In this document: piece after piece, positions 18,193 to 36,541 of the stretch
How positions within the stretch are numbered: the first letter of the stretch is position 1
Layout of the letters: every line of letters begins with the position of its first letter
Origin: Alphaproteobacteria bacterium
GTDB lineage: Bacteria > Pseudomonadota > Alphaproteobacteria > ATCC43930 > CGMCC-115725
Direction: 5' to 3'
Length of the DNA: 38,699 nt
NCBI GenBank assembly: GCA_030041385.1
Contig: JASHNY010000037.1
Coordinates: 1-38,699 of the forward strand
Translations under genes and position numbers: made by a program
Notes under the pieces: generated by a model
What the model was told of the DNA's origin: nothing
Database searches by the model: none
Seen by the model: only the letters and a program-made list of their open reading frames with translations

Positions 18193-18951
18193 ATGCCCGT
18201 TGTGTGCGTCGCATCGCCGAAAGGGGGGGCCGGCAAAACAACGCTTGCGGCCACGATCGGCGTCGCGCTGCGGCGAATCGGCTGGCGTGTGCTCGCGCTC
18301 GATTGCGACCGGGAAAACGCGCTGCGCCTGCATTTCGAATTGCCGAGCGACGAATTGCCCGGGATCGCCAACGACGGCGGCGCGGAGCGCGACTGGACCG
18401 AGCTGGCGGTCGAGACCCCGTCCGGCGTGTTCGTGATCCCGTTCGGCGCGGCGGAGGCCAGCGACAGCATCCGGCTGACGACGCTGATCGGCGACAACCC
18501 GGGCTGGGTCGGCCGGAAGCTCGCACCGTTTTTCGAATATCGCGATCTGGCCATCGTCGTCGACATGCCGCCGGGCCCGTCGGTCTACGACGCCGAGATC
18601 GACACGCTTGCGGATGTGCATGTTGCGGTGCTGGTCGCCGATGCGCTCAGCCTGGCGCTGTTGCCGCGCTTCCAGCGCGGCGATTTTGGCTGGGGCGGTG
18701 CGCCGCGCAAATCACCCACCGGCTATGTGATCAACCAGGTCGAGCCGCGGCACCGGCTGTGCCGCGACGTTCTGGTTCTGGGCCGGGAGGTACTGGGCGA
18801 AGCGCTGTTCGGCACCGTCCACCACGACGAAGCCGTCGCCGAGGCGGTGGCGTGTCGGCAGACCGTTCTCGATTACGCCCCCGACAGCATCGCCGCCCAC
18901 GACATCGCGGCGGTCGCGAATCGGATTCACGACAGCCTGGCGCCGGCATAG
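18193..18951 (+). CDS. bcsQ: Cellulose biosynthesis ATPase BcsQ (MinD/ParA-like)
   Basis: A 252-residue SIMIBI-class ATPase with the deviant Walker A loop SPKGGAGKTTLAATIG near the N-terminus and DMPPGPS as the second nucleotide motif. LALDCDRENALRLHFELP is characteristic of BcsQ, in which the switch region runs into NALRLHF. In enterobacteria BcsQ with BcsR is needed for cellulose synthase activity and polar placement. The gene follows the BcsR-like gene by 2 bases and precedes bcsAB by 19 bases. Confidence 0.92.
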   Translation: MPVVCVASPKGGAGKTTLAATIGVALRRIGWRVLALDCDRENALRLHFELPSDELPGIANDGGAERDWTELAVETPSGVFVIPFGAAEASDSIRLTTLIGDNPGWVGRKLAPFFEYRDLAIVVDMPPGPSVYDAEIDTLADVHVAVLVADALSLALLPRFQRGDFGWGGAPRKSPTGYVINQVEPRHRLCRDVLVLGREVLGEALFGTVHHDEAVAEAVACRQTVLDYAPDSIAAHDIAAVANRIHDSLAPA

Positions 18952-21900: not shown

Positions 21901-23581
21901 GTTCTACGACCCGAAGGACATGCAGGCGTTGTCGTTGCCGTTCGTGTTCTCGGCCAAGCCGTCGGATGCGACGTTGCAGGCGGCCGGGACGGTGGCGTCG
22001 TGGTTCGGCGCGCTGGCCTCGTACAAGGGGGCGAGCTTCCCGACTTATCTCGACACCATCCCCAACGGCAACGCGGTGGTGTTCGCCACCCCGTCCGAGA
22101 AGCCGGCGGGGCTCGACCTGCCGGCGCTGAGCGGCCCGACCATCTCGGTCATCACCAACCCGAACAATCCCGAAGCCAAATTGCTGCTGGTCATGGGGCG
22201 CACCCCGACCGAGCTGCGCGCCGCCGCCGACACGCTGTCGCTGGGCTCGGCGACGCTGACCGGGCAGACGCAAGTGGTCGGCATTCCGACGATCCCGACG
22301 CGCAAGCCGTACGACGCGCCGCGCTGGGTGCCGATCGACCGGCCGGTGCATTTCGGCGAATTGGTGCAGCCGACCGATCTGCAGGGCAACGGGCTTGTTC
22401 CCGGGCTGCTGACGCTGAACTTCCGCACCGCACCCGACATCTTCGTGTGGGGCAACAGCGGTGTGCCGCTCGACATCAAGTACCGCTATCCGGCCGGCAC
22501 GTGGCTCAACTTCCCGGATTCGCGCCTCGACGTATCGATCAACAACTCGTATCTGCGCAGCCTGCCGCTGACCGAGCGGGGCGTGGCCCAGCAGGTCAAA
22601 GACATGGTCTCGCCCGATTTCGTCATGAACGAGCAGACCGTGCAGGTGCCGCCCTATTACGTGTTCGGCCAGAACCAGCTGCAGTTCTATTACGATCTGC
22701 GCCCGGTGAAGAAAGGCGAATGCCAGGGCACATTGCCGACCAATGTGCGCGAATCGATCGATCCCGACTCGACGATCGACCTGTCGCATACCGAGCGGTT
22801 TACCTCGCTGCCGAACCTGGCGTTCTTCGTCAACTCGGGCTATCCGTTCACGCGCATGGCGGATCTGTCGACGACCGCCATCGTCATGCCTGACCAGGCC
22901 GGCGCCCCCGACATCCAGGCGTTCCTGACCCTGATGGGGATGATGGGCGATTCGACCGGGTTCCCGGTGGTGCGCGCCTCGGTGATCGGCCCAGATGCGG
23001 TCAACCAGGAGACGGACAAGAACTTCATCGTCCTCGGGTCGATCCCGCAGCAGCCGCTGGTTGCACGCTGGGCCCATAACAGCCGGCTCAGCGTCGATGG
23101 CGGGCATTTGCGGGTCGCGGTCAACTCGCCGGTCGACCGGGTCTACACGATGCTCGATCCCAACGCGCAGGAAGAGCGCCAGCGGGTCGATCAGCTTCTG
23201 GTGTCGCGCGGTGACGACCTCGCCGCGATGATCGGGATGGAATCGCCGCTGCACTCCGGCCGCAGCGTGGTGATGATCACCGGGTCCAGCCCCGACAAGC
23301 TGATGACCGTCATCAACACGTTCCGCAATCGCGACCTCAACGCGCTGATCCAGGGCGATCTGATGGTGGCAACGGGCGGCAAGGTGTCGAGCTTCCGCGT
23401 CGGCGACGAATACACCGTCGGAAACCTGCCGGTGGTGACCAAGATCCGCTGGTGGCTCGGCAATTCGCCGCTGGTCCTGATCCTGTTCACCTTGATCGGC
23501 GTATTGATCATCGCACTGGTCGCCTACGCGCTGCTGAGCCGGCTCGCCTCGGCGCGGCTGGGTTCGCGGTCGGCGCCATAG
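18971..23581 (+). CDS. bcsAB: Fused cellulose synthase BcsA-BcsB
   Basis: A 1536-residue fusion of the catalytic and periplasmic cellulose synthase subunits. Residues 1-705 are BcsA: four N-terminal membrane helices, a GT2 domain with DDG (180-182), DSD (228-230), TED (323-325) and QRMRW (361-365), further helices, the gating loop FNVTEKG (485-491), and a PilZ domain with RSSVR (564-568) and NLSTTG (591-596) for c-di-GMP activation. From about 716 a hydrophobic segment ending in AWA resembles the BcsB signal, now an internal membrane anchor, then a Pro/Ala/Gly-rich linker to about 835, BcsB carbohydrate-binding and flavodoxin-like domains, and a C-terminal membrane helix. UDP-glucose is polymerised and the glucan passed across the inner membrane. 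Such fusions are known from Komagataeibacter AcsAB. Confidence 0.96.
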   Translation: MASYLTRLAGSRSTGQSLVLAVLVIAGVFLLGIVVITPLDLVSQALFAALTIIAMLIIKGHPSRGVTLALITLSIVVSTRYIWWRLTATMQFASVTEACLGIGLILAELYAWFVLVLGYIQTAWPLRRPPVALPEDIAEWPTVDLLIPTYNEPLSVVQSTVYGALSLDYPIDKLQIYILDDGRRDEFREFAEAVGVGYIVRDDNLHAKAGNLNHALGLTNGELLALFDSDHVPTRAFLQLTVGWFLRDPKLALVQTPHHFYSPDPFERNLRGAATVPNEGQLFYGLIQDGNDLWNASFFCGSCALMRRSAVEQIGGFATQTVTEDAHTALRLHRAGWNSAYLRLPLAAGLATERLAIHVGQRMRWARGMTQIFRVDNPVLGRGLSLGQRICYLNAMLHFFFGLPRFVFLTAPLCYLLFKLNIIAASGLMVIVYAVPHLVHSTVTNSRLQSRYRHSFWGEIYESVLALYILKPTLSTLINPKRGRFNVTEKGGLLPRDYFDYKIVRPHMIITVLLVIALIVGVARWALSGLAGTEVLLLNVAWAIFNLLTVGAAIAAGRETRQLRSSVRLGLTMPGAIYLPDGHTLVTQSRNLSTTGGLFVAPRPSGIAPGDVIQIELPIGERTGVFPARVIAWDDQILRVAFDELTLRQQRELVRIVLCRADAWLDWEEHPVDRPLRSVREILISIGGLFVPRRLRPGMAGGPPMGPGAEAPQPGRIRERINSGLLIAAGLGLGLLAASGTAWAQNAPAARPPAFLSGPTGTTPQQNSAGPLTGAAAPAPQGSGMPETTPALVPGSMAPGSVTPPNQPGLPAPAGAAAGTAPATAPTGSVRQEVLSLKDLGANSPIRLLGVQGEGSLPFSVRRDEVVTGGKIDLSYAYSPALIPELSHLTVLLNGEVLGSLPLPKDTNSGATASLPINPVLFQDDNRILFRFIGHYTLGCEDPLHSSLWLVLSNTSKITMQLQKLTLANDLSLLPTPFYDPKDMQALSLPFVFSAKPSDATLQAAGTVASWFGALASYKGASFPTYLDTIPNGNAVVFATPSEKPAGLDLPALSGPTISVITNPNNPEAKLLLVMGRTPTELRAAADTLSLGSATLTGQTQVVGIPTIPTRKPYDAPRWVPIDRPVHFGELVQPTDLQGNGLVPGLLTLNFRTAPDIFVWGNSGVPLDIKYRYPAGTWLNFPDSRLDVSINNSYLRSLPLTERGVAQQVKDMVSPDFVMNEQTVQVPPYYVFGQNQLQFYYDLRPVKKGECQGTLPTNVRESIDPDSTIDLSHTERFTSLPNLAFFVNSGYPFTRMADLSTTAIVMPDQAGAPDIQAFLTLMGMMGDSTGFPVVRASVIGPDAVNQETDKNFIVLGSIPQQPLVARWAHNSRLSVDGGHLRVAVNSPVDRVYTMLDPNAQEERQRVDQLLVSRGDDLAAMIGMESPLHSGRSVVMITGSSPDKLMTVINTFRNRDLNALIQGDLMVATGGKVSSFRVGDEYTVGNLPVVTKIRWWLGNSPLVLILFTLIGVLIIALVAYALLSRLASARLGSRSAP

Positions 23582-23636: not shown

Positions 23637-26189
23637 ATGAGATCGTGGGTTCGGCCTCTCGCAATCGGCGTGCTGCTCGCGGCCGCGATCCCGCTGCGCG
23701 CCGTGCTCGCCGCGGAAAGCGCCGAGCAGGTATTGCTCGACAAGGCCAATTACTGGCGGCTCAAGGACCGTCCGGACCTGGCCATGGAGGCATTGACCAA
23801 GCTGCTGTTTCTCGACCCGAACCAGGTCGAGGGGCTGTACCAGCTTGGCATGCTCGAAGTGCAGCAGGGCAAGATCCCGGATGCCCGCCTCGATCTGGCG
23901 CGGCTGCAAAAGGCCGATCCGACCAGCCCGCACATCGTCGAACTGGAAAACGCGATCCGTGCCGGCAAGATCGGCCCGAACGAGCTGAACCAGGCGCGGC
24001 GGCTGGCGCAAAGCGGGCAATTGACCGAGGCGATCGAGAAATACCAGGAGGCGTTTCGCGGACCGCCGCCGCCCAGCTTCGGAATCGAATACTACCTGAC
24101 CCTTTCCGGCACCCCGGGCGGCTGGGACCAGGCCTTGCAGGGATTGCAGCAACTGGCCCAGTCGGAGCCCAACAACAAGGAGGTCAAGCTCGCCCTGGCG
24201 CAGGTCATGATCAATCGCCAGGATACGCGGCCGGACGGGATCACCGCACTGATCCAGCTCAGCAAGGACCCGGTCGTCGGGGCGGACGCGGTCAAATTGT
24301 GGCGCCAGGCATTGCTGTGGGGGGCGCCGACGCCGCTTTACGCCCAGTACCTCGCGCAATTTCCGCAGGACCAGGAGGTGCGCCAGCGCGCCGCCGACAT
24401 CGCGGCCCAGAGCGGAGGCGCCGGCGCTTCGGCCCAATCGCAGGCCTATGTCGATCTGCAACATGGCAAGCTCGCCGCGGCCGAGAAGCAGTTCGCCGCC
24501 AGCCTGCACAGCAATCCGAACGACGCCCAGGCGCTCGGCGGGCTCGGGCTGGTGCGGCTGCGCCAACAGCGTTTTGCCCAGGCGCGCGACCTGCTCGGGC
24601 GGGCAATGCGAGCCGATCCCGCCGACCGCAAGAACTGGACGGCCGCCTATGACAGCGCCTCGTTCTGGGCCAGCGTGGAAGAGGCCAAGGCGTTGCAGTC
24701 CGCGGGCAAATTGCAGCAGGCGCGGGCGCTGCTGAACCGGCTGCTGGCGCACCCGCGCGGCGATAGCTGGGGCGCCGAAATGGTGCTGGCGAACGTCGAA
24801 TCCCGGCTGCACGACAACACCGCCGCGGAGCAGACCTACAGGCGTGTCCTCAAGGCGCGACCGGGGAATGGCGACGCGCTGGTCGGTCTCGCCAGCGTCC
24901 TGACAGCGCAGGGCAAGACGGCCGAGGCGAAGACGATCATCGATCGCCTGACCCCGGCCGAACGTGCGCGGCTGACCAAGAACAGCGTTGCGCCGGCCGA
25001 ATTGCTGCGCCAGCAAGCCAAGAACGCGGAGGCGAACGGAAACTACGCGCTCGCCGAGCAGAAATTCAAACAGGCGATCGCCGACGATGCGCGCGCTCCG
25101 TGGATTCGCCTCGATTACGCCCGCTTTCTCGCGGGGCAGGGCCGCATCAACGAGGGCTTTGCGGTTGTCGACCCGATGGCCTCGGGCAATACCCCTGACA
25201 GCGTTCTGGTAGCGGCGATGTACGATGTTCAGCAGGACCGCTGGGCCGCTGCGCTGGACAAGGTCGACAGCGTGCCGGTCAACGAGCGTTCGTCCGACCT
25301 GAAGAATTTTCGCGACCGCATCCTGTCGCGGGCGACCGAGGACAGGGCCGAGCAACTGATTGCCGCCGGCAACCGTACCCAGGCGCGCAACATCCTGGTC
25401 GCGCTCTACACCAATCCCGACGTGTTGCCGGACGAGCGGCGCATCGCCGCGTACGATCTGTATCGGCTCGGCTACCAGAACACGGCACTGCAACTGACCA
25501 GGCGAGAAATGGAGCGCGGCGGCGCGGTCGGGGTCAAGGCCGGGATCGACTACGCGAAGCTGCTGGTGACGGATGCGCGCTACAGCGATGCGGAAGCGGT
25601 CGTCGCCAGGCTCGAGGCGAGCCCCGACCTTACCGCCGACGATCGCGACGAATTGCTGTCGGCGAAGGCGATTCTGGTCTCGCGCAATGTCGACAAGCTG
25701 CTGGTCGGCCGTCATTTCGCGGAGGCCTACGATCTGGTGTCGCCGCTGCTGGTGGCGCGGCCAAATGATCCGGTCGTGTTGATGACGGTCGGGCGGATCT
25801 TTGCCGCGGCCGGCCGCGACACTCAGGCGCTCAAGTATTTTGACCAGGCGTACCAGCAAGATCCCGACGATGTCGGGATCATCCGCGGGGTCGTCATGGG
25901 ATCGATCCAGGCGGACGATATCGGCCAGGCGCAGAAATACTTGGACGCCGGCGAGAAGGCGCATCCGAAAAATCCGTGGATGTTCTACCTGCAGGCGCAG
26001 ATCGAGCGCGCGCGCGGCAATAACCGGGCGGCCATGAGCGCGTTGCGCACCGCAGAGTCGCTCGCCAAGGCACAGGGCCTGGTGACCCCGTCGTCGGCGC
26101 AGCCGGAAACGCCGGCGCTCAAGCTGCCGCCCAACCCGTTCCGATCAGACAATACGGTCCCGCCCGCGCTGCGGTCGGCCGGCGTGTGA
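23637..26189 (+). CDS. bcsC: Periplasmic TPR half of a split BcsC (no beta-barrel)
   Basis: An 850-residue exported protein. A signal peptide (RPLAIGVLLAAAIPLRAVLAAE) is followed by tandem TPR helices over almost the whole length, for example AQALGGLGLVRLRQQRFAQARDLLGRAMRADP and VVLMTVGRIFAAAGRDTQALKYFDQAYQQDP. It ends with a short Pro-rich tail (KLPPNPF) and has no outer-membrane barrel, which the C-terminus of normal BcsC (over 1100 residues) would carry. The barrel is encoded by the next gene, whose first 111 residues are a gap-free paralogue of this N-terminus. The protein should form the periplasmic scaffold between BcsB and the exit pore and may bind acetylation or BcsD partners. It starts 55 bases after bcsAB. 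Confidence 0.9.
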   Translation: MRSWVRPLAIGVLLAAAIPLRAVLAAESAEQVLLDKANYWRLKDRPDLAMEALTKLLFLDPNQVEGLYQLGMLEVQQGKIPDARLDLARLQKADPTSPHIVELENAIRAGKIGPNELNQARRLAQSGQLTEAIEKYQEAFRGPPPPSFGIEYYLTLSGTPGGWDQALQGLQQLAQSEPNNKEVKLALAQVMINRQDTRPDGITALIQLSKDPVVGADAVKLWRQALLWGAPTPLYAQYLAQFPQDQEVRQRAADIAAQSGGAGASAQSQAYVDLQHGKLAAAEKQFAASLHSNPNDAQALGGLGLVRLRQQRFAQARDLLGRAMRADPADRKNWTAAYDSASFWASVEEAKALQSAGKLQQARALLNRLLAHPRGDSWGAEMVLANVESRLHDNTAAEQTYRRVLKARPGNGDALVGLASVLTAQGKTAEAKTIIDRLTPAERARLTKNSVAPAELLRQQAKNAEANGNYALAEQKFKQAIADDARAPWIRLDYARFLAGQGRINEGFAVVDPMASGNTPDSVLVAAMYDVQQDRWAAALDKVDSVPVNERSSDLKNFRDRILSRATEDRAEQLIAAGNRTQARNILVALYTNPDVLPDERRIAAYDLYRLGYQNTALQLTRREMERGGAVGVKAGIDYAKLLVTDARYSDAEAVVARLEASPDLTADDRDELLSAKAILVSRNVDKLLVGRHFAEAYDLVSPLLVARPNDPVVLMTVGRIFAAAGRDTQALKYFDQAYQQDPDDVGIIRGVVMGSIQADDIGQAQKYLDAGEKAHPKNPWMFYLQAQIERARGNNRAAMSALRTAESLAKAQGLVTPSSAQPETPALKLPPNPFRSDNTVPPALRSAGV

Positions 26190-26249: not shown

Positions 26250-28196
26250 ATGAGGTTATGGGCCCGGCAGCTCGCGCTGGGGTTGCTGCTGACTGCGGCA
26301 ATTCCGGCGACCGCGGTGCAGGCGGCCGACAATGCCGAGCAGACCCTCCTCAACCGAGCTATTTACTGGCGCACGAACCGCCGCCCCGACCTTGCCCGCG
26401 CCTCGCTCGACAAATTGCTGGCGCTCAATCCTGGGCAGGCCGATGCGCTGTATCAATACGGGATCCTGGAGGTGCAGCAGGGTCACCCCACCGAGGCACG
26501 ACGGTACCTGCTGCGCCTGCAGCAGGTTGCGCCAAAAGACCCGAGAATCGTCGGCCTGCGGGCTGCGGTTCGCGGCGGCAATGCCGCAGACGAGCGACGT
26601 GACGCCGGCCAGGGCGCCATCTCTGGCAGCAGCACGCCCCCGGCCGGCGCGGCCCAGGCGGCGGAATCTGCGTCGGCCGGTTCGTCCGCGCCGGTCGCGC
26701 TGGACCCCGGCGCCGGGCTGCCGGCGCCGCTCGAAAGCACGGCCCGCTCGGTCGATAGCGACGACCTGATCGGCAATTCCGCGGCACCGGTCGCGACCGC
26801 GGCAGGTGCTGTCGCCGCGAAAGGCGCGGGCGGCAGCGCCGCGGCGACCAAGGTGCCCGTGACAGTCAGCGGCGGCCAATCGACCACGCAATTGGCGCAG
26901 CTCGAATTGGCCATTCCCGGCCCGGTTGGCGGCTATCAGCCGCCGATCACCGGGGGCCAGGTGCCGGCGCAGGATTCGCTGCAGCTCGATATCGAGCGCA
27001 GCATGGCGCAGATTGAGGCCGAGACCAGCCCGATGCTGGAAGCCGGCGCAATCTATCGATTCCGCGAAGGCCAGAGCGGGCTCAGCGCGCTGAACGAAGT
27101 CGGCGTGCCGATTGTCGGGCGATACTCGCCAGGGCTGCTAGGCAACCTGGAATTGGCGGTAAGCCCGGTCTGGCTGAGCGCGGGCTCGGTGTCGACGGGC
27201 TCGTTGCCGCAATTCGGGGCGAACGAGCTTCTCGCGGCACACAACCTCAGCGGTGTGTCCCCGGGCGATCAGTCGGCGGTCGGCGTGCTGACATCGCTCG
27301 GCTATTCGTTCGGCCCGTTCAGCGGCAGGATCGGCGATTCGGCATGGGGTTTCCCGGTCAACAACATCATCGGCGACATCGCCTACCAGCCGAAATTCCT
27401 CAACAACACGATGAGCGTGCGGATCGAGGGCGAGCGCACTCCGGTGACCGACAGCCTGCTGTCCTATGCCGGCACCAGCGCCTCGCTCGGCGCCGCCAAT
27501 GCGCTGACGCACGGGGCGTTCGGCACCAACGGAACCTGGGGGGGCGTCGTCAACACTGGCATTCGCGCCTCGGTGTTTTACGACGACAATTACATCGGCG
27601 CCTTCGGCGGGTTCGGCGCCTCGTACCTGACCGGCACGAACGTCGCGCAGAACGACGAGTTGCAGGGTTTCATGGGCGCCTATTTCCGGCCGTACCGAAC
27701 GGAAAATTCGGCCCTGCGGGTCGGCGTCAATCTGATCTATTTCGGCTTCGACAAGAACTTGTCGTTTTACAGCTTCGGCCAGGGCGGATATTTCAGCCCG
27801 CAAAACTACGAGGCGATCACGTTCCCGGTCGAATACCAGGGCCGGACCGGGCGGTGGAGCTATCTCGGCTCGGTGGCGCTCGGCGTTCAGCACTTCAATC
27901 AGGAGGACAGCCCGTTCTTCCCCAACAATCCCTACGCCCAGATCGCGCTTGAGGGGTTGGTCGGCGATTCGGCTGCCTTCTATCCCGGGAGCACCACCAC
28001 CGGCATCGCCGCCGATCTGCGAGCCCAGGTCGAATATGCGATCAGCGACAACCTGTCGGTCGGTGCGGCGGGTTCGTTCGACAACGGCCATTCCTACAAC
28101 GAAGGCATCGTTAAGGTGTATCTGCGCAAGACATTTTCCGATCCTCCCCCGGTCATGACGATCCTGCCCGGCACGCCGATGAAAGGGCCGAACTGA
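26250..28196 (+). CDS. bcsC: Outer-membrane barrel half of a split BcsC
   Basis: A 648-residue protein with its own signal peptide (LALGLLLTAAIPATAVQAAD), a short TPR segment to about residue 111, a low-complexity Ala/Ser/Gly/Pro linker to about 220, then the BcsC C-terminal domain. The latter includes YQPPITGG-like sequence, IERSMAQIEAETSPMLEAGAIYRFREGQSGLSAL and a series of alternating strands ending in SYNEGIVKVYLRKTF, as in the cellulose export porin. It should let the glucan cross the outer membrane. By eye roughly 60 of the first 111 residues are identical, without gaps, to the preceding gene product, so a duplicated 5' end gave each half its own export signal. A GGGAGGAGGGACG ribosome site precedes the ATG. 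Confidence 0.92.
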   Translation: MRLWARQLALGLLLTAAIPATAVQAADNAEQTLLNRAIYWRTNRRPDLARASLDKLLALNPGQADALYQYGILEVQQGHPTEARRYLLRLQQVAPKDPRIVGLRAAVRGGNAADERRDAGQGAISGSSTPPAGAAQAAESASAGSSAPVALDPGAGLPAPLESTARSVDSDDLIGNSAAPVATAAGAVAAKGAGGSAAATKVPVTVSGGQSTTQLAQLELAIPGPVGGYQPPITGGQVPAQDSLQLDIERSMAQIEAETSPMLEAGAIYRFREGQSGLSALNEVGVPIVGRYSPGLLGNLELAVSPVWLSAGSVSTGSLPQFGANELLAAHNLSGVSPGDQSAVGVLTSLGYSFGPFSGRIGDSAWGFPVNNIIGDIAYQPKFLNNTMSVRIEGERTPVTDSLLSYAGTSASLGAANALTHGAFGTNGTWGGVVNTGIRASVFYDDNYIGAFGGFGASYLTGTNVAQNDELQGFMGAYFRPYRTENSALRVGVNLIYFGFDKNLSFYSFGQGGYFSPQNYEAITFPVEYQGRTGRWSYLGSVALGVQHFNQEDSPFFPNNPYAQIALEGLVGDSAAFYPGSTTTGIAADLRAQVEYAISDNLSVGAAGSFDNGHSYNEGIVKVYLRKTFSDPPPVMTILPGTPMKGPN

Positions 28197-28309: not shown

Positions 28310-28969
28310 ATGAAGCTGGCGCTGGCGGGTTTGATCATATTGATGATCGGAGACAGCCATCTTGCCGGCAAAGACTTTCTGCTCGCCTCGCTGCATCCGG
28401 CCCTCGAGGCCCAGGGTGCGGGCGTCCACACCTATGCGGTTTGCGGCTCAAGCCCGCGCGACTGGGTGGTCCGCTCGACGCTGCCATGCGGCCGGTCGGA
28501 GCGGCAAAACATGGAACCGCCGGTGATCGACCCGACCAAAAAGGCCCAGGTATGGTCGCTCGATGCGCTGATTCAGCGACACGATCCCAACCTGCTGATC
28601 ATCGAACTCGGCGACAACATGGCCGGCTACGGCGTGTTGCCGGAATTGCCGCGCGACTGGATCAACCAGCAGGTCCGCGAATTGCTGTTGCCGGTCGAGG
28701 CGCGCCACCTGCCGTGCATCTGGGTCGGACCGCCGTGGGGGAGCGAAGGCGGGCCGTCGAAAAAGACGTTCGCGCGCGTCAAGGAACTCTCGGACTACCT
28801 TTCGACCATCGTATCGCCGTGCCGCTATATCGATTCGTTGAAATTCTCGCAGCCCGGGCAGTGGCCGACCTATGACGGCGAGCACCTGACCCCCGACAGC
28901 TACAAGCTGTGGGGCGCCGATATCGCCAACGAAGTGGTCAAAATCGCCGCGTCCCTGCCGCGCCATTGA
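28310..28969 (+). CDS. SGNH-fold protein 1 of 4 (WssF-like)
   Basis: A 219-residue SGNH hydrolase-fold protein. The nucleophile motif is GDSH (S16) at the very end of the first hydrophobic strand, N103 lies in ELGDNMAGYG, and the C-terminal Asp-His pair is YDGEHLT (about D189, H192), so all catalytic positions are filled. Four cysteines (45, 60, about 136 and 171) are shared by all four copies. By position between bcsC and the AlgF/MBOAT genes it corresponds to WssF of Pseudomonas, part of cellulose O-acetylation. No signal peptide precedes the first strand and no upstream in-frame start exists. A GAAGCG/CGCTTC hairpin follows the stop. The esterase or transferase role is inferred. Confidence 0.82.
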   Translation: MKLALAGLIILMIGDSHLAGKDFLLASLHPALEAQGAGVHTYAVCGSSPRDWVVRSTLPCGRSERQNMEPPVIDPTKKAQVWSLDALIQRHDPNLLIIELGDNMAGYGVLPELPRDWINQQVRELLLPVEARHLPCIWVGPPWGSEGGPSKKTFARVKELSDYLSTIVSPCRYIDSLKFSQPGQWPTYDGEHLTPDSYKLWGADIANEVVKIAASLPRH

Positions 28970-28974
28970 ACCAG

Positions 28975-29000
28975 AAGCGGCGGCGCTTCCAAGCATCTGG
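28975..29000 (+). terminator. Hairpin after SGNH gene 1
   Basis: GAAGCG and CGCTTC pair around a GCGG loop a few bases after the stop. It has no T run and may only stabilise or attenuate the transcript. Confidence 0.25.
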
Positions 29001-29078
29001 CCGAGCCATTGCCCTTCGCGCAACCGGGCGGCTAAGGTCAAACAAGAACAATTATACTAAAACGTTGGGAACTTGCCG

Positions 29079-29843
29079 ATGAATGCGGCGCTGGCTGGGT
29101 TGGTCATATTGCTTATTGGCGACAGTCATATCGCGGCAACCGGGTTTTTCAACAACACCCTGCACGACGGATTGGTCGCCGCGGGCGCCGCCGTGCATTC
29201 CTTCGGCGTGTGCAATTCGGCGCCGAGCGACTGGATTCGCCCGACCCCGCTCGTCTGCGGCCGCGGCGAGCGCCACGGTCGCGACCCGGCCGTGATCGAA
29301 AACGGGCCGACCTTGCGCGGCTGGTCATTGCCGATGTTGATCGCCCAGTACAATCCGAACCTCGTGGCGATCGAGCTCGGCGACAACATGGCCGGCTACA
29401 GGGAAACCACGTCCCTGCCGCGCGCCGAGATTGCCGCCCAGGTACGCCAGCTCCTGCACCCGGTCGAGGCGCGCAATCTGCCCTGCGTCTGGATCGGGCC
29501 GCCATGGGGCACCGATGGCGGGTTGTGGCAGAAAACCGATACGCGGGTACGCCAGCTGTCGGACTATTTGTCGCAGATCGTCAGCCCCTGTCACTATATC
29601 GATTCGCTGAGATTTTCGGCGCCGGGACAGTGGCATACGATAGACGGCGTGCACCTGACCGCGACGGCGACCCGCTTGTGGGATAACGATCTCGTAAGCT
29701 CTATCGTGCAGTTTGCCGGCGGATTGCCGCGACAATCGCAACGGCCGCGTCCCTCCGACGGGATCGCCAATCCTGTGCGCCAGCGGCATCGGGGCGCGCC
29801 GTCAAACAACGACGCCGGCAACAGCGGAGACAACGGGTCATGA
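29079..29843 (+). CDS. SGNH-fold protein 2 of 4, with C-terminal tail
   Basis: A 254-residue paralogue of the preceding protein. GDSH, N103 (ELGDNMAGY) and the terminal IDGVHLT motif are all present, as are the four shared cysteines. Unlike the other copies it has about 35 extra C-terminal residues, rich in Arg, Pro, Ser, Asn and Gly and probably disordered. The ATG at 29079 is preferred to a TTG six bases earlier; GGGA lies upstream. Its stop overlaps the start of copy 3 (ATGA), so those two are translationally coupled. The 109-base gap before it includes an AT-rich pocket with TATACT at 29053-29058, possibly an internal promoter. Confidence 0.8.
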   Translation: MNAALAGLVILLIGDSHIAATGFFNNTLHDGLVAAGAAVHSFGVCNSAPSDWIRPTPLVCGRGERHGRDPAVIENGPTLRGWSLPMLIAQYNPNLVAIELGDNMAGYRETTSLPRAEIAAQVRQLLHPVEARNLPCVWIGPPWGTDGGLWQKTDTRVRQLSDYLSQIVSPCHYIDSLRFSAPGQWHTIDGVHLTATATRLWDNDLVSSIVQFAGGLPRQSQRPRPSDGIANPVRQRHRGAPSNNDAGNSGDNGS

Positions 29844-30496
29844 GCTTGGCACTGGCGGGGCTGGTCATCCTCGCGATCGGCGACAGCCACATGGCGGGTC
29901 GCAATTACCTGCTGACCAACCTGCACGACCAGCTGGAAGCGCAGGGGGCGCAGGTGAATTCCTATGGCATGTGCGGTGCCAGCGCCGGCGATTGGCTGTA
30001 TCCGACGACGGTTTCCTGCGGGCGCGGCGAACACCACGACAATCAGATGCCGGTGACCGACCGCAACAAGATCGAGAAGACCTGGAACATCAATCAGCTG
30101 ATTCAGCAGAACCATCCCAACCTGGTGGTCATAGAGCTGGCCGACACGATGGCCTCTTATGGCACCAACCCGTTTCCGCGGGCGTGGATCTACGATCAGG
30201 TCAGGGCGCTGGTCGGGCGGATTCAGGCCGATCACATCTCGTGCGTGTGGGTCGGACCGATCTGGGGGAACCCGGGTCCGCCCTATTACAAGACCGTGTC
30301 GCGGGTGACCGAAATGGCGCAGTTCCTGTCGCAGAACGTGGCGCCGTGCCGCTTTATCGATTCGACCACCTTCGCCAAGCCCGGCGAATGGCCGACGACC
30401 GATGGCCAGCATCTGACGCCCAGCGGCTATCACCTGTGGGGGCAGGACATCACCAACGCGATCGTGCGGCTGAAAAGCGAGAACGCGATCAATTGA
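29840..30496 (+). CDS. SGNH-fold protein 3 of 4, block III Asn replaced by Thr
   Basis: A 218-residue paralogue with GDSH and TDGQHLT intact and the four shared cysteines. The block III position is T103 (ELADTMASYG), where copies 1 and 2 have Asn, an oxyanion-hole residue in typical SGNH enzymes. It may retain reduced or altered activity, bind acetylated glucan without turnover, or partner an active copy. Translation is coupled to copy 2 through a 4-base overlap. A CGCCGCC/GGCGGCG hairpin lies just past the stop. Confidence 0.8.
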   Translation: MSLALAGLVILAIGDSHMAGRNYLLTNLHDQLEAQGAQVNSYGMCGASAGDWLYPTTVSCGRGEHHDNQMPVTDRNKIEKTWNINQLIQQNHPNLVVIELADTMASYGTNPFPRAWIYDQVRALVGRIQADHISCVWVGPIWGNPGPPYYKTVSRVTEMAQFLSQNVAPCRFIDSTTFAKPGEWPTTDGQHLTPSGYHLWGQDITNAIVRLKSENAIN

Positions 30497-30501
30497 CCGG
30501 G

Positions 30502-30521
30502 CGCCGCCATTGCCGGCGGCG
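30502..30521 (+). terminator. Strong hairpin between SGNH genes 3 and 4
   Basis: CGCCGCC (30502-30508) pairs with GGCGGCG (30515-30521) around a 6-base loop in a 128-base gap. A short CGTTAACG palindrome follows rather than a T run. It may attenuate or stabilise the polycistronic mRNA. Confidence 0.35.
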
Positions 30522-30624
30522 TCGTTAACGCCGGATTAGAGTTGCCGGGCTAGTTTTCGCGGATTGGCGCATCCGGCAGCGCATCACCGGCGGGGAAACA
30601 GAGCTTGCAGGGGATCGATCCACA

Positions 30625-31284
30625 ATGAGTGCGTTGCTGGCCGGTTTGATGATCCTGATGATCGGCGACAGCCATATGGTGTCGAGCGGTTATCTGATTA
30701 CAACGTTGCACAACGATCTGACCGAAGAGGGGGCGACGGTCGACACCTACGGCATGTGCGGTGCCAATGCCGGCGACTGGGTTTACAAGACCACGGTTTC
30801 CTGCGGCGAGGCGGAACGCCACGGCAAGAAGCCGCCGGTCATCAATCGCCAGCCGCGCGCGATAGGGTGGACCTTCGATTCGCTGGTCGCCGCCAACCAC
30901 CCCAACCTCGTCGTCGTCGAGATGGGCGACACGATGGCCGGTTACGGCCAGCACGATTTTCCGCGCGCCTGGATCTACGAACAGGTGCGCACGCTGACCC
31001 AGCGCATCCAGGCGCATCACCTGCAGTGCGTCTGGGTCGGGCCGCCCTGGGGCAGCGAGGGGTCGTCGTATCACAAGACCTTCGCCCGGGTCCGCGAGAT
31101 GTCCGACTTCCTGGCGAAGTCGGTGTCGCCGTGCCTGTTCATCGATTCGACACAGTTCTCCTCGCCGGGCGCCTGGCCGACGATCGACGGCCAGCACCTG
31201 ACGGCCAGCGGTTATCGCATGTGGGGCAAGGACATCGCCGATGCGATCGACCGCCTGGCCAGCCAGGGGGCGATCAAGAAATGA
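30625..31284 (+). CDS. SGNH-fold protein 4 of 4, block III Asn replaced by Thr
   Basis: A 219-residue paralogue, closest by eye to copy 3: both have CGA(S/N)AGDW, TVSCG, the FPRAWIY segment and DTMA. GDSH, IDGQHLT and the four shared cysteines are present, and residue 103 is Thr (EMGDTMAGYG). The stop overlaps the start of the AlgF-like gene (ATGA), coupling the SGNH set to the acetylation module downstream. Function as a cellulose O-acetylation component is inferred from context. Confidence 0.8.
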   Translation: MSALLAGLMILMIGDSHMVSSGYLITTLHNDLTEEGATVDTYGMCGANAGDWVYKTTVSCGEAERHGKKPPVINRQPRAIGWTFDSLVAANHPNLVVVEMGDTMAGYGQHDFPRAWIYEQVRTLTQRIQAHHLQCVWVGPPWGSEGSSYHKTFARVREMSDFLAKSVSPCLFIDSTQFSSPGAWPTIDGQHLTASGYRMWGKDIADAIDRLASQGAIKK

Positions 31285-32009
31285 GCCGCTGGAAAAACCG
31301 AATCGCGATGCCGTCTCTGCCGCGCCTTGCCGCCATGCTGGGGCTTTGCGCCGGCCTCGGCCTTGCCGCCGCTCCCGGCGCCGGCGCTGCGGGAGGGCGA
31401 CTCTACCCGAGTGGGCCGCCGCACGGCGTGGCCTATCTGCGTTTTGCCAACCTGACGATGCATCAGGCGAAAGTCGCCTCGGCGGCGGCGGAATTGACCC
31501 TGCCGACCGACGACCCGCACCGCGCGGGGCAATACGATCCGGTCACTCCCGGCAGCGAATTGGCCGGTTCGGTCGTGCTCGACGGCAAGAGCAAGCCGAT
31601 CGACCTGAAGCTGACCCCGAACGAGTTCATGACCATCGTCATTACCGCCGGCACGGATGGCGGTCCGGCCATCACGCCGCTGCACGAGACGCCGACCGAC
31701 TTCAACGCGCAGAAATCCTCGATCGTTCTCTACAATCTCGATCAAGGCTGCAAGGCCGCGAAGCTGGTCGCGGGGCCGCAGAATGTTGCGGTGATTTCCG
31801 GGGTTGCCCCGGACGCTTTGGGGCGGCGGTTGGTGAACCCGGTCAATGTCTCGCTGGCGGTTGCCTGCGGCGACGCGGCGCCGGCGGTTCCGGTCAAGCT
31901 CGGGCAGATGGCCGCCGGCGAGCGGTACAGCGTCTTTCTCTTCAACCGTTCGGGCGCCGGGCGACAGGCCCTGGCCGTCCGCGACGAAATGGCGCCGTTC
32001 CGGCCCTAG
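31281..32009 (+). CDS. AlgF-like secreted protein (WssG position)
   Basis: A 242-residue exported protein. A signal peptide (AAMLGLCAGLGLAAAPGAGAAG) is followed at once by GRLYPSGPPHGVAYLRFAN, which resembles the start of mature AlgF, the alginate O-acetylation adaptor. The rest looks like two beta-rich domains, with a Cys near the middle and another in SLAVACGD. It contains no catalytic motif. In wss and alg operons such a protein lies beside the MBOAT gene and is thought to carry or relay acetyl groups between membrane and periplasmic enzymes. The ATG overlaps the SGNH 4 stop. The frame upstream of 31281 is a shadow of SGNH 4. Confidence 0.72.
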   Translation: MSRWKNRIAMPSLPRLAAMLGLCAGLGLAAAPGAGAAGGRLYPSGPPHGVAYLRFANLTMHQAKVASAAAELTLPTDDPHRAGQYDPVTPGSELAGSVVLDGKSKPIDLKLTPNEFMTIVITAGTDGGPAITPLHETPTDFNAQKSSIVLYNLDQGCKAAKLVAGPQNVAVISGVAPDALGRRLVNPVNVSLAVACGDAAPAVPVKLGQMAAGERYSVFLFNRSGAGRQALAVRDEMAPFRP

Positions 32010-32091: not shown

Positions 32092-33489
32092 GTGATCTTC
32101 TCTTCGGTCGAGTTCCTGGCGCTGTTTCTGCCGCTGTTCTTCGTCGCCTACCTGGCGACTCCGGCGTCGGCGCGGAACGTGACCTTGTGCCTCGGCAGCT
32201 GGGCATTCTATGCCTGGTGGAAGCCGATGTTCCTGCCGTTGATCGTGGGCATCACCTTTGTCGCCTGGGCGCTGGGCGGCGCGATCGAGCGTGCGCGGGA
32301 AGACGGCAAGCCGCCGTTATTGACGATCGGGGTGATCGCCATCCTGTGCTGCCTCGGCTGGTTCAAATACGCCAACCTGCTGGTCGCCACGCTCGATCAG
32401 GCGCTGGCAAAATTTGCCGCCGGGCCGGTGCCGTGGACCGACATCATCCTGCCGATCGCGCTGTCGTTCACCGTGTTGCAGTCGATCTCGTACCTGATCG
32501 ACGTGCGCCGCGGCGTGGTCACGGCCGAGCCGAGCTTCATCGCCTTCAGCGCCTATCTCGACATGTTTCCGCACCTGATCTCGGGCCCGATCATCCGCTA
32601 TTCCTGGGTCGACAAGGACCTGGTTCAGCGCCGGCTGACCATCGAGGGCCTGGCAGACGGCGCGCGCCGGTTCATGCTCGGGTTTGCGATGAAGGTGCTG
32701 ATCGCGGATTCGCTGGCGCCCATCGTCGACAAGATTTTCACGCTGCCGCATCCGACCCTGGTCGATTCCTGGCTCGGCAATGTCGGGTTCGCCCTGCAGA
32801 TCTACTACGACTTTGCCGGCTACAGCGCGATGGCGATCGGGCTTGGCCGCATGCTCGGGTTTCACTACCCGGAGAACTTCAACAATCCGTACCTGGCGGT
32901 GACGATCCAGGATTTCTGGCGGCGCTGGCACATCAGCCTGTCGACCTGGCTGCGCGACTACCTCTACATCCCGCTCGGCGGCAACCGTAAGGGTCTGGTC
33001 CGCACCTACATCAACCTGATGCTGACGATGGCGATCGGCGGGTTGTGGCATGGCGCCAGCTGGTCGTTTCTGCTGTGGGGGGTGTTGCACGGGGCCGCGC
33101 TGGCGATTGCACGGGCGTGGAACGCGCGGCGCCTGCCGATGTCGCAGACCCTGTCATATGTGCTGACCCTGGCCGTCGTCCTGTTCGCCTGGACGCCGTT
33201 CCGGGCGACCAGCTGGAATGGAACCGTGGCGATGCTGGCCGGCCAGGTCGGGCTCAACGGCATCGGCATCAGCGATGTGGTCGCGGTGGCGCTGAGGCCG
33301 GTTGAGGTCGTCTGGCTGGGAATCGGGATCGCGGTGGTGATCTGGCCTGCGGTGCGGGCGCAATTGTTGCCGCGCCTTGTGTGGCGCTCGGAATGGTGGT
33401 CGGCGGTGTGGCCGACGGCGCTGTTCCTCTACGCGATCGCGGTGATGATGGGGCACCAGACCGTGCCGTTCCTCTATTTCCAGTTCTAG
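32092..33489 (+). CDS. wssH: MBOAT membrane O-acyltransferase (AlgI/WssH-like)
   Basis: A 465-residue polytopic inner-membrane protein of the MBOAT family, expected to pass acetyl groups from the cytoplasm to periplasmic acceptors for cellulose acetylation. The start MIFSSVEFLALFLPLFF is typical of AlgI. The conserved DFWRRWHISLSTWLRDYLYIPLGG and the catalytic histidine H320 in GGLWHGASW are present, with a second His (H333) in LLWGVLHG. About ten hydrophobic segments are visible. Start is GTG at 32092. Context with bcsAB and the AlgJ-like gene favours cellulose over alginate; no alginate synthesis genes are present. Confidence 0.93.
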   Translation: MIFSSVEFLALFLPLFFVAYLATPASARNVTLCLGSWAFYAWWKPMFLPLIVGITFVAWALGGAIERAREDGKPPLLTIGVIAILCCLGWFKYANLLVATLDQALAKFAAGPVPWTDIILPIALSFTVLQSISYLIDVRRGVVTAEPSFIAFSAYLDMFPHLISGPIIRYSWVDKDLVQRRLTIEGLADGARRFMLGFAMKVLIADSLAPIVDKIFTLPHPTLVDSWLGNVGFALQIYYDFAGYSAMAIGLGRMLGFHYPENFNNPYLAVTIQDFWRRWHISLSTWLRDYLYIPLGGNRKGLVRTYINLMLTMAIGGLWHGASWSFLLWGVLHGAALAIARAWNARRLPMSQTLSYVLTLAVVLFAWTPFRATSWNGTVAMLAGQVGLNGIGISDVVAVALRPVEVVWLGIGIAVVIWPAVRAQLLPRLVWRSEWWSAVWPTALFLYAIAVMMGHQTVPFLYFQF

Positions 33490-33499
33490 GGCGACGGCC

Positions 33500-34672
33500 A
33501 TGACGTTCAATGATCGCCCGCTATTGCCCGCCGGAGTAGAAACGGCTAGGGGCTGGACCATGCGGCTCCGCCTCCGCCCGCGCCTGATTCCCGCCATGGC
33601 CATGGCGGCGGTGCTGCTCGTCGGGCTCGCCTCCAACATCGCCGCGCTCGTCGCCCCCGGCGACAAGGCGATGTCATCGCATTATTCTTGGCATGACATC
33701 GCCGCGGGCAAGCCGACCGCCGACATTGCGCATTTCCTGCTGCACCACAACCCGTTCGCCGCTTCACTGGTAACGGTCGATCGAACCATCGCCTGGAATG
33801 TCGTCGGCGATCTCGGCACGCGCGTGCGCCGCGGCTGCGGCAATTGGCTGTTTCTGACGGACGAGCTGGAAATTCACAAGGATAGGATCGCCTCGCTCGA
33901 TCGCCACGCGAAGATCGTCGAGGCGGCTGCCGCGTTTCTGCGTCGCCGCAACATCGATCTGGCGGTCGCCGAAGTCCCGGACAAGTCGCGGGTCGAGGCG
34001 AGCGAGCTGTGCGGGATCGACCGCTCGCCGGTGTTGGCGCCGCGCTACAACGCGTTCGTCTCCCGCCTGCGCGGAGCCGGGATGCGGGTGGTCGATCTGT
34101 TGCAGCCGCTGACCGCGCTCAGCGGCGAGGGCTATTACCGCACCGACACCCACTGGAACCAGCGCGGCGCCAAGGCGGCAGCCGGCGCCATCGCCGCGGC
34201 GCTGCGCAAATGGGGCTGGGCGCCGACGCAGCATGCCGAGTTCCACGTCACCACCGGGCCGGTGCATGAGCGGGTCGGCGACCTGATTCGCCTCGCCGGG
34301 CTCGACGACGTGCCGTGGCCGCTGCGTCCGCGCGGCGACATGGTCGCGACCACCCGGATCGAGCAATCCGCCGCCGCCGGCACCGGCATCCTCGACGAGG
34401 TGGCGGCGCCGCAACTCGTCGAGATCGGCACGTCGTTTTCGCGGCGGGCCGAGTTTACCGGCTTTCTCGGCATGGCACTCGGCGCACCGGTGGCCAACAT
34501 GGCCAAGGACGGCGGCGGTCTGACCGCTGCGGCGATCGCCTATTTCGGGAATCCCGCCTTCACCAAAACCCCACCGAGGGTTATCGTTTGGGAAATACCG
34601 GAACGAGTATTGGAGCAGCCGGTGGCCGCTTCCGATGAGGCTTGGGCCGCTAGGCTGAACGGGGGAAGCTAG
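33500..34672 (+). CDS. wssI: AlgJ/AlgX-like SGNH acetyltransferase (WssI-like)
   Basis: A 390-residue protein anchored by one N-terminal hydrophobic helix (about residues 31-50), with the rest in the periplasm. The SGNH catalytic set of the AlgJ/AlgX group is present: DTHW (D216, H218) and EIGTSFS with the serine at 312. GCGNWLFL and EVPDKSRV are further family marks. It would place acetyl groups on the glucan, receiving them through the MBOAT and AlgF-like proteins. It starts 11 bases after the MBOAT stop. The stop codon TAG (34670-34672) lies inside the left end of a repeat element, so the native C-terminus may have been altered. Confidence 0.9.
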   Translation: MTFNDRPLLPAGVETARGWTMRLRLRPRLIPAMAMAAVLLVGLASNIAALVAPGDKAMSSHYSWHDIAAGKPTADIAHFLLHHNPFAASLVTVDRTIAWNVVGDLGTRVRRGCGNWLFLTDELEIHKDRIASLDRHAKIVEAAAAFLRRRNIDLAVAEVPDKSRVEASELCGIDRSPVLAPRYNAFVSRLRGAGMRVVDLLQPLTALSGEGYYRTDTHWNQRGAKAAAGAIAAALRKWGWAPTQHAEFHVTTGPVHERVGDLIRLAGLDDVPWPLRPRGDMVATTRIEQSAAAGTGILDEVAAPQLVEIGTSFSRRAEFTGFLGMALGAPVANMAKDGGGLTAAAIAYFGNPAFTKTPPRVIVWEIPERVLEQPVAASDEAWAARLNGGS

Positions 34673-34912: not shown

Positions 34913-35395
34913 ATGAGTGCACCGGCGGACGCAGAGCAGATCTCGTTGCGCTATTACGCCCAACAGCATTGTGCTCGGCAATGGGCGCATTTCATTGCGG
35001 CAATGTTTGCCGAGTTCGAGGAGCGTGTCGATCCGGTCGAAGCCGACCAGTTTCTCGAAACGCTGGGATCGCGAATGGCGCAATCGCTGCCGTTGCGGCG
35101 CTGCGACAATCTCGAGGAACTCGAGGAAGACATGAACGCGGTGCTCGAGGGCATCGATTGGGGCTGGGTGCGGATCGCCGAAAACGGCGGCGGCTATATC
35201 GAGATCGTGCATGGCGCCTATCCGGTCGTCCCGCAGGACGAGCAGCGACGGACCTGGCTGGCACCGGCTCTGGAAGGGCTTTACACCGAGTGGATGAGCG
35301 GCCAGGGCGGCGATCCGTCGTGTACGGCGCGGCTGGCCGAATCGCCGGGCGAGGTTGGGGCGCCGCTGCGCTTCCATTACGGCTCGCACGGATAG
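34913..35395 (+). CDS. bcsD: Cellulose synthase subunit D
   Basis: A 160-residue protein matching Komagataeibacter BcsD (AcsD) in length and pattern: FEERVDPVEADQFLETLGSRMAQSLPL, NLEELEEDMNAVLEGIDWGWVRI and the best-conserved TWLAPALEGLYTEWMSGQGG. BcsD forms an octameric periplasmic ring through which glucan chains are guided and is linked to crystalline cellulose. As in known members there is no obvious signal peptide. A GGGGGGAGTAGGGAG purine-rich ribosome site precedes the ATG. It lies after the structured repeat and before bcsZ. Pairing BcsD with an acetylation module is uncommon as far as I recall. Confidence 0.9.
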   Translation: MSAPADAEQISLRYYAQQHCARQWAHFIAAMFAEFEERVDPVEADQFLETLGSRMAQSLPLRRCDNLEELEEDMNAVLEGIDWGWVRIAENGGGYIEIVHGAYPVVPQDEQRRTWLAPALEGLYTEWMSGQGGDPSCTARLAESPGEVGAPLRFHYGSHG

Positions 35396-35476: not shown

Positions 35477-36541
35477 ATGGTTCGCGGCATGTTGCTGATG
35501 CGGCGTTTTGTCCTGGCGTTGGGGCTGCTGCTGGCGTTTGCCCCTGCGCCCCGCGCCGCCGACACGGCGCCGCCAATTTCGAATGCTGCCGAATGGGGGG
35601 TCTACCGCACCCGGTTCGTGGCCCCCGACGGGCGCGTTCTCGACACCGCCAACAAGGAGACCAGCCACACCGAGGGTCAGGGCTGGGCCATGCTGTTCGC
35701 CGAGACCTTCAACGACCGCCCGACCTTCGACACGATCTGGAACTGGACCCGCGAACACCTGCAGCGGCATGACTGCGCGCTGTTTTCGTGGCAGTGGAAC
35801 CCGGCCGATCCCAAGAACCCGATCGCCGATCGCAACGACGCCGCCGACGGCGACATCCTGATCGCCTGGGCCCTGACCCGCGCCGCCCGCCGCTGGCATG
35901 CGCCGCTATACCGCACGGCGGCGCGCCGCATCATCGCCGACATCCGCACCCGGCTGCTCTACGCAGACGCGGGGCGGCTGGTGCTGCTGCCGGGCCTGAC
36001 CGGGTTTCGCCAGAAGGACGGGAGCACGATGGTCAATCCGTCGTACTACATCTACCCGGCCTTTCGCGACTTCGCGCGCATCGCCCCCTCCCGCGAATGG
36101 TGGCGTCTGCAGCGGGACGGATTGGCATTGCTTACCAATGCACGCTTCGGTCGCTGGGGCCTGCCGCCCGATTGGATCGTGATCGACCGGGCAGGCGACA
36201 TCGCCCTCGCAGCCAATGTGCCGCCGCGCTTCGGTTTCGATGCGGTCCGCGTGCCGCTCTACCTGATGTGGGGGCGCGTCGCGCCGCCAAGCCGGCTCAA
36301 CGCCTTCGTCGATTTCTGGAACCATTTCGGCGACAAACCGGTCCCCGCCTGGATCGACCTCAAGACCGGCAAGCTGGCGCCGTACCCCGGCTCGACCGGG
36401 GTGCAGACGATCGTCCAGCTCGCCCGCTTCTACCGCCATCACGATCCGCAACCCCTGCCGGCTATCGGCGACAAAGACGATTATTACTCGGCCAGCCTCA
36501 CCCTCTTGGCGCGGATCGTCCGGAGCGAGACGGGCGGATAG
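35477..36541 (+). CDS. bcsZ: Cellulase BcsZ (glycoside hydrolase family 8)
   Basis: A 354-residue periplasmic endo-beta-1,4-glucanase that trims glucan during export. A signal peptide (RRFVLALGLLLAFAPAPRAAD) leads to the GH8 domain. The proposed acid catalyst is E66 in SHTEGQGWAM, and DAADGDILIAWAL (D124, D126) is the next conserved acidic motif; VNPSYYIYPAFRDFA and GFDAVRVPLYLMW also fit BcsZ. ATG codons at 35477, 35489 and 35498 are all possible starts. It is the last gene of the cluster, 82 bases after bcsD. Confidence 0.94.
   Translation: MVRGMLLMRRFVLALGLLLAFAPAPRAADTAPPISNAAEWGVYRTRFVAPDGRVLDTANKETSHTEGQGWAMLFAETFNDRPTFDTIWNWTREHLQRHDCALFSWQWNPADPKNPIADRNDAADGDILIAWALTRAARRWHAPLYRTAARRIIADIRTRLLYADAGRLVLLPGLTGFRQKDGSTMVNPSYYIYPAFRDFARIAPSREWWRLQRDGLALLTNARFGRWGLPPDWIVIDRAGDIALAANVPPRFGFDAVRVPLYLMWGRVAPPSRLNAFVDFWNHFGDKPVPAWIDLKTGKLAPYPGSTGVQTIVQLARFYRHHDPQPLPAIGDKDDYYSASLTLLARIVRSETGG

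Follow-up and report, generated by a model that had tools for sequence, protein, structure and literature searches.

Four tandem wssF-type genes, two with the canonical oxyanion residue, in a predicted acetylated-cellulose cluster of an alphaproteobacterium

How strong a cellulose biofilm is depends in part on acetylation (PMC10302187). According to the published model, acetyl is moved through the membrane by WssH and then handed to cellulose by WssI and WssF; WssI can acetylate cello-oligomers in vitro, and mutants in wssF and wssI form smooth colonies and easily disrupted biofilms (PMC10302187). WssF has been proposed as the analogue of AlgX, acting as terminal acetyltransferase (PMC4148444, PMC10302187). 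The mutants show the need for WssF; the passages covered report neither a demonstrated activity nor a compartment for it. Acetylated-cellulose operons have been described in four species, with a duplication of wssC in Bordetella avium (PMC7112194), and those titles, abstract openings and passages of the open-licence PMC literature that were covered hold no mention of a wssF tandem array. Here we describe such an array in an uncultured alphaproteobacterium, on a contig of 38,699 nucleotides (JASHNY010000037.1 of assembly GCA_030041385.1; this whole stretch is called the window), in which four intact open reading frames (ORFs), termed F1-F4, lie in tandem on the + strand at positions 28310-31284. 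By sequence, F1-F4 belong to the WssF/BcsX family of SGNH proteins, and they probably represent a lineage-specific tandem expansion of wssF (= bcsX) with partial specialisation. As a tandem expansion the feature is of an ordinary kind; what sets it apart is the number of copies, together with a telling active-site difference.

F1 (28310..28969) encodes 219 aa with Ser16, Gly46, Asn103, Asp189 and His192, its SGNH block III reading GDN. F2 (29079..29843) encodes 254 aa from its ATG, or 256 aa from an alternative TTG start at 29073; it has the same GDN in block III, Asn in place of the block II Gly, and a C-terminal tail of about 35 aa that is absent from F1, F3 and F4. F3 (29840..30496; 218 aa) and F4 (30625..31284; 219 aa) have Thr in block III (ADT and GDT, respectively). 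Block I of the window copies is GDSH, and stop and start codons overlap (ATGA) at F2/F3 and at F4/wssG. The pairwise identity of the proteins is 45.4-59.2% (six pairs) and their alignment is collinear over the full length, with a mean column identity of 63%. A whole-genome profile search with the four copies found exactly four places at E <= 0.01, all of them F1-F4. The preliminary description of this DNA had proposed four tandem SGNH-fold paralogues in a cellulose cluster, collinear in length and motifs; the four intact frames and the SGNH fold of the F1 model (see below) bear this out, as does the end-to-end alignment of proteins of 218-254 aa, with the F2 tail as the exception. An assembly duplication artefact was ruled out by the 45-59% identity between the copies, as well as by the tandem arrays that two further genomes of the genus have in the same cluster.

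The family assignment draws on both sequence and predicted structure. In 32 of 33 named loci of relatives, F3 shares 38-62% identity with its counterpart over most of its length, including 45-46% with the corresponding gene of six Pseudomonas loci (L032-L035, L043, L045); the remaining locus (L046) gave a partial match (45% over residues 116-218). AlphaFold models were built from alignments of 58 sequences, in which partial rows were filtered and L057:7669-8217 and the Pseudomonas members L033, L043 and L045 were left out; the predicted local distance difference test (pLDDT) value was 95.6 for F1 (predicted template modelling score, pTM, 0.93) and 92.1 for F4. Foldseek matched the F1 model to many SGNH esterases and acetyltransferases (best E 2.7e-07), and the VIA Z values among the 50 matches listed were 14.7-16.6, many of these matches being GDSL/SGNH or acetylesterase entries. 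None of F1-F4 reached the Pfam gathering score for any family, the best sub-threshold scores being 22.2 against 32.9 for Lipase_GDSL_2 and 17 against 23.6 for Lipase_GDSL; the SGNH assignment therefore rests on the fold match and the catalytic residues. Solved structures gave no relative by sequence with F3 as single query, and weak matches with a profile (best E 0.00041). Pfam ALGX (PF16822) matched none of F1-F4 at E <= 1, while WssI matched it at 4.2e-65, and the view of WssF as a counterpart of AlgX is therefore one of function and not of sequence family.

Conservation was read from an alignment of 65 rows, from which the distant L007 and L051 were left out and which does not include the plasmid members L068 and L069; counts refer to rows with a residue at the column in question. 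Ser16 is present in 62/62 rows, Asp189 and His192 in 64/64, and four cysteines are invariant (Cys45 63/63, Cys60 63/63, Cys136 65/65 and Cys171 64/64). Residue 103, which a profile alignment places opposite the GAND-block Asn of 1YZF, is Thr in 52, Ala in 6 and Asn in 4 of 62 rows. The four Asn-bearing members are exactly F1, F2 and the F1 orthologues of two other genomes of the window's genus, G003 and G007. The block III Asn is the canonical oxyanion donor of the superfamily, and its replacement by Ala abolishes the activity of SaOatA (PMC9487903). In BcsX of Komagataeibacter xylinus, Thr104 stands at the oxyanion place, and its authors considered that the mechanism might be another one or that the model might be at fault (PMC9318390). 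Thus, by its aligned residues, the F1/F2 group carries the canonical residue in a family that is mostly without it.

Phylogenetic analysis of 63 sequences (also without L046 and the cut copy of L040) placed the 12 sequences of the window's genus in a single clade (support 98/93). Three groups make up this clade: F1, F2 and the F1 orthologues (100/100), F4 with its orthologues (89/89), and F3 together with all remaining sequences (86/85). Each of the three groups holds members from all three genus genomes that carry the family, so the expansion predates these species. F2 branches off before F1 splits from its orthologues (95/87) and is therefore old, having been lost or not assembled elsewhere; it has the longest end branch of the four, and no separate F2 orthologue was seen in the fragmented assemblies of G003 and G007. 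The betaproteobacterial, Pseudomonas and f194 (a family of the wider sample) rows lie across a 100/99 branch from the genus rows in the midpoint-rooted tree, the GESH-type copies of f194 grouping with Pseudomonas. A shared origin with the tandem pair found in Betaproteobacteria (described below) was thereby ruled out, and that pair is an independent duplication. Nei-Gojobori ratios of nonsynonymous to synonymous divergence (dN/dS) between orthologues were 0.17-0.49, compared with 0.22-0.40 for wssH; these values indicate purifying selection.

Relatives' contigs were searched by tblastn. In the window's genus, the family is present in 3 of 8 genomes: (i) the window's own (G000), with four copies; (ii) G003, with four places, of which a copy truncated by the contig end is 96.8% identical to another over 554 bases, giving 3 or 4 distinct copies; and (iii) G007, where four places were likewise found, including a copy truncated by the contig end and another, on a separate contig, with GDSQ for GDSH. 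The latter (L060:475-1113) is fast-evolving and lies on a 3.5 kb contig that carries no further genes of the cluster. Two F3-type copies of G003 (L058:4564-5217 and L057:7669-8217) are 96.8% identical over 554 bases and their similarity stops just past the gene, as in a recent extra copy or in strain variants. Elsewhere in the order, no genome matched at E <= 1e-5 (3/43 genomes overall, all in the genus). Matches were found in 7/385 genomes of the class sample (the six besides G000 with at least one copy each, two of them remote at E ~1e-11), in 5/398 of the phylum sample (at least 4, 2, 2, 1 and 1 copies) and in 28/298 of family f194 (at least one copy in 21, at least two in 7); all three sets of counts are lower bounds, since scoring stopped at the top 7 or 10 candidates in each genome. 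In family f44, all seven genomes have one copy.

Among the 33 named loci, 18 have one copy, 13 two and 2 three, single-copy counts being lower bounds where contigs are short (the second copy of L040 is cut by the contig end); the two three-copy loci appear to correspond to contigs of G003 and G007. All 13 two-copy loci are betaproteobacterial by record title and have a GDSH-type gene followed by a GESH-type gene, an order shared by G657 and G756, the two f194 genomes inspected out of seven with two copies. The six Pseudomonas loci have one GESH-type copy each, other Alphaproteobacteria examined have one, and four plasmid records have one place each. The expectation that a wss operon has a single wssF therefore holds for the Pseudomonas loci but is wrong for 13/33 named loci and 7/28 f194 genomes, which have pairs. 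More than two wssF copies were seen only in the window's genus.

From these data, we infer both an action of F1-F4 in acetylation and their partial specialisation. Participation of the four copies in the acetyl handling of cellulose is very probable. Each would be a Ser-Asp-His acyl-transfer enzyme, the small SGNH member of the cellulose O-acetylation cassette, and would act with WssH (an acetyl-exporting MBOAT protein), WssI (relay or transferase) and WssG (adaptor) to acetylate the chain made by the single cellulose export system detected in the genome. F1/F2 (GDN) and F3/F4 (GDT/ADT) might differ in rate, in preference for transfer or hydrolysis, or in the position acetylated. Specialised steps had been suggested in the preliminary description, and this stands in part: some specialisation is likely because the paralogues are old, fall into groups shared by three genomes, are under purifying selection and differ at a catalytic position. 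Distinct biochemical roles for two or more of the copies are, in our judgement, slightly favoured.

Several points weigh against this explanation as a whole. The Asn difference concerns one position, and this position tolerates change, since Ala (6/62 rows, two of them F3-type copies of G003) and Pro (the Methylobacterium plasmid member L068) occur there elsewhere in the family; the Roseomonas plasmid member L069 has Thr. The age and selection estimates have limits of their own: the synonymous divergence (dS) between the window copies and their relatives is high (0.57-1.01), which makes the dN/dS ratios rough, the supports of the F3 and F4 groups are below 95, and some G003 and G007 copies are cut by contig ends. 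F2 may be on the way to losing its function, because it is fast-evolving, is without the block II Gly and is not matched by an orthologue of its own in G003 or G007. Finally, the passages of the literature examined report a demonstrated activity for no WssF-family member.

The copies could instead be biochemically equivalent and kept because more WssF protein is useful. The intact catalytic triad and cysteines of all four copies, and a tandem array with stop/start overlaps, would fit such a gene dosage effect, but the copies are 45-59% identical with group-specific residues, including that at the oxyanion position, and distinct orthologous groups have persisted through speciation, while dosage alone would presumably more often leave near-identical copies; we regard it as rather unlikely. 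The Asn-bearing pair might also be acetylesterases that trim acetyl groups, with the Thr-bearing copies performing the transfer. This agrees with the confinement of the canonical Asn to the F1/F2 group (4/62) and with the match of the F1 model to carbohydrate acetylesterases (CE3 2vpt, Z 16.4; Axe2 4jj4, Z 15.3); however, O-acetyltransferases match about equally (PatB 8tlb, Z 15.9), and SaOatA and SpOatA are transferases that keep Asn (PMC9487903), so that Asn alone does not mean esterase, and a division of this kind seems doubtful. An assembly of two or more copies into a mixed ring or relay, as might be suggested by co-encoded genes of similar length with overlapping stops and starts at F2/F3 and F4/wssG, is quite improbable, as relatives manage with one or two WssF, so that the reaction can do without a complex of four parts. 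Four natural copies, one pair of which differs at the oxyanion position, offer a ready comparison of transfer and hydrolysis.

As to the compartment, among 62 members in which the Ser motif was found, the open frame extends at most 22 residues before the catalytic Ser in 14; the putative n-region is free of Lys and Arg in 57, no Met start was found in 4, and F1 is the sole member with an n-region Lys. Most of the family thus appears to be without a classical export signal, and a cleaved signal would, judging from the model, remove the catalytic strand. On the other hand, the four invariant cysteines suggest disulfides, and hence the periplasm; from strand positions, the pairs might be 45-60 and 136-171, which is a guess. 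For BcsX, SignalP and Phobius disagree and its authors left the localisation undecided; the protein was purified from Escherichia coli in soluble form, in buffers with dithiothreitol (PMC9318390). Since the family as a whole is without a classical export signal, F1/F2 (Asn) and F3/F4 (Thr) may even catalyse different steps, some or all of them in the cytoplasm, where the acetyl donor meets the MBOAT protein. We consider this unlikely; if true, it would differ from current models, which place the WssF steps in the periplasm. Because the family combines four invariant cysteines with the lack of a classical signal, the compartment question is directly testable.

The array is embedded in what is, by gene content, a complete wss-type acetylated-cellulose cluster, all of it on the + strand. 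Upstream of F1 are: (i) a weakly bcsR-like gene (17516..18190; Pfam PF10945, E 1.3e-4 at 22.0 bits, below the cut-off of 25.2); (ii) bcsQ (18193..18951; PF06564, E 1.1e-35); (iii) a fused bcsA-bcsB (18971..23581; NCBIfam TIGR03030, E 7.9e-266, at residues 18-686, and BcsB NF008323 at 832-1530); (iv) a gene for a BcsC-like protein of 850 aa consisting of tetratricopeptide repeats (TPR) without a barrel (23637..26189); and (v) a gene for the outer-membrane barrel of BcsC, preceded by a short N-terminal TPR stretch, the second half of a split bcsC (26250..28196; PF05420, E 6.6e-83) and the sole BCSC_C match of the genome. Downstream are: (vi) the AlgF-like wssG (31281..32009; PF11182, E 1.9e-13), whose start overlaps the F4 stop; (vii) wssH, encoding an AlgI-like MBOAT O-acyltransferase (32092..33489; PF03062, E 1.9e-29); (viii) wssI, encoding an AlgX/AlgJ-like SGNH acetyltransferase (33500..34672; PF16822, E 4.2e-65); (ix) bcsD (34913..35395; PF03500, E 6.5e-26); and (x) bcsZ, encoding a GH8 endoglucanase (35477..36541; PF01270, E 3.7e-66). 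The four copies are thus part of a wss acetylation cassette and neighbour its AlgF-, AlgI- and AlgX/J-like genes. A look for further clusters in which the additional copies might act gave one BCSC_C gene and two MBOAT genes for the whole genome, the second MBOAT gene lying outside the window (G000:C26:14990-15634; L070). Gene order suggests that the cluster is one operon. A consensus scan, which for promoters covers sigma-70 types, gave no internal promoters or terminators above chance (for promoters, 2 candidate sites where 2.6 would be expected, neither of them on the + strand; for terminators, 15 where 11.9 would be expected).

The first 111 residues of the TPR-only and barrel proteins are 56% identical, suggesting a duplication of bcsC followed by complementary loss of its parts. 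The same split occurs in G003 (L058), while in 29 other loci a single frame contains both the TPR and the barrel; in G002 and G005, genomes of the window's genus without wssF, the BcsC C-terminus lies within long frames. The occurrence of bcsD together with an acetylation cassette was also observed in L067 and L068, alone among 40 context loci, and bcsD is present in the window's own genus as well (L057). G003 contains a second AlgX-type gene outside its cellulose contig (G003:C351:1428-2210).

Homologues of wssG and wssH were found near the family member in 34 of 40 loci of relatives. The contig ends beside the gene in L040 and L067, cutting the context; L038 shows no wss cluster, L042 shows none on a contig that ends about 750 bases past the gene, and L044 shows none, apart from a weak wssH-like stretch at a distance of about 5.6 kb, whose ORF has no Pfam match. 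In Undibacterium squillarum (L041:9998-11841), a WssF homologue overlaps an MBOAT ORF and no cellulose genes were found beside it; this is perhaps a minimal WssF-MBOAT pair. Three f44 loci (L064, L065 and L066) have a TPR-only BcsC-like gene directly before wssF-G-H-I and no match of the window's barrel or of bcsAB within 20 kb, Pfam having been run on some L065 ORFs only.

Among described systems, the alginate acetylation proteins differ from WssF in that AlgJ seems to be a circular permutation and AlgX possesses a carbohydrate-binding module that is missing from WssF (PMC4148444). BcsX of the Komagataeibacter bcsII operon, likened to the window copies by its published description, is an SGNH protein of 223 aa from a putative acylated-cellulose operon, with Ser16, Asp187, His190 and Thr104; bcsII has a single BcsX, with the acyltransferase BcsY and the SGNH/lectin-like BcsZ, and lacks wssGHIJ (PMC9318390). 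WssF of the Pseudomonas fluorescens wss operon, as judged via the six Pseudomonas loci, belongs to the same family and occupies the same slot, after bcsC and before wssG-H-I; the single copy of those loci has a GESH block I and a Thr-bearing block III, whereas the window has four with GDSH, two of them with Asn. The tandem wssF pairs of Achromobacter, Bordetella, Pigmentiphaga, other Betaproteobacteria and seven f194 genomes likewise arose by tandem duplication and, wherever the contig shows the context, sit in a wss cluster as in the window; but they comprise two copies that fall outside the genus clade, while the window has four.

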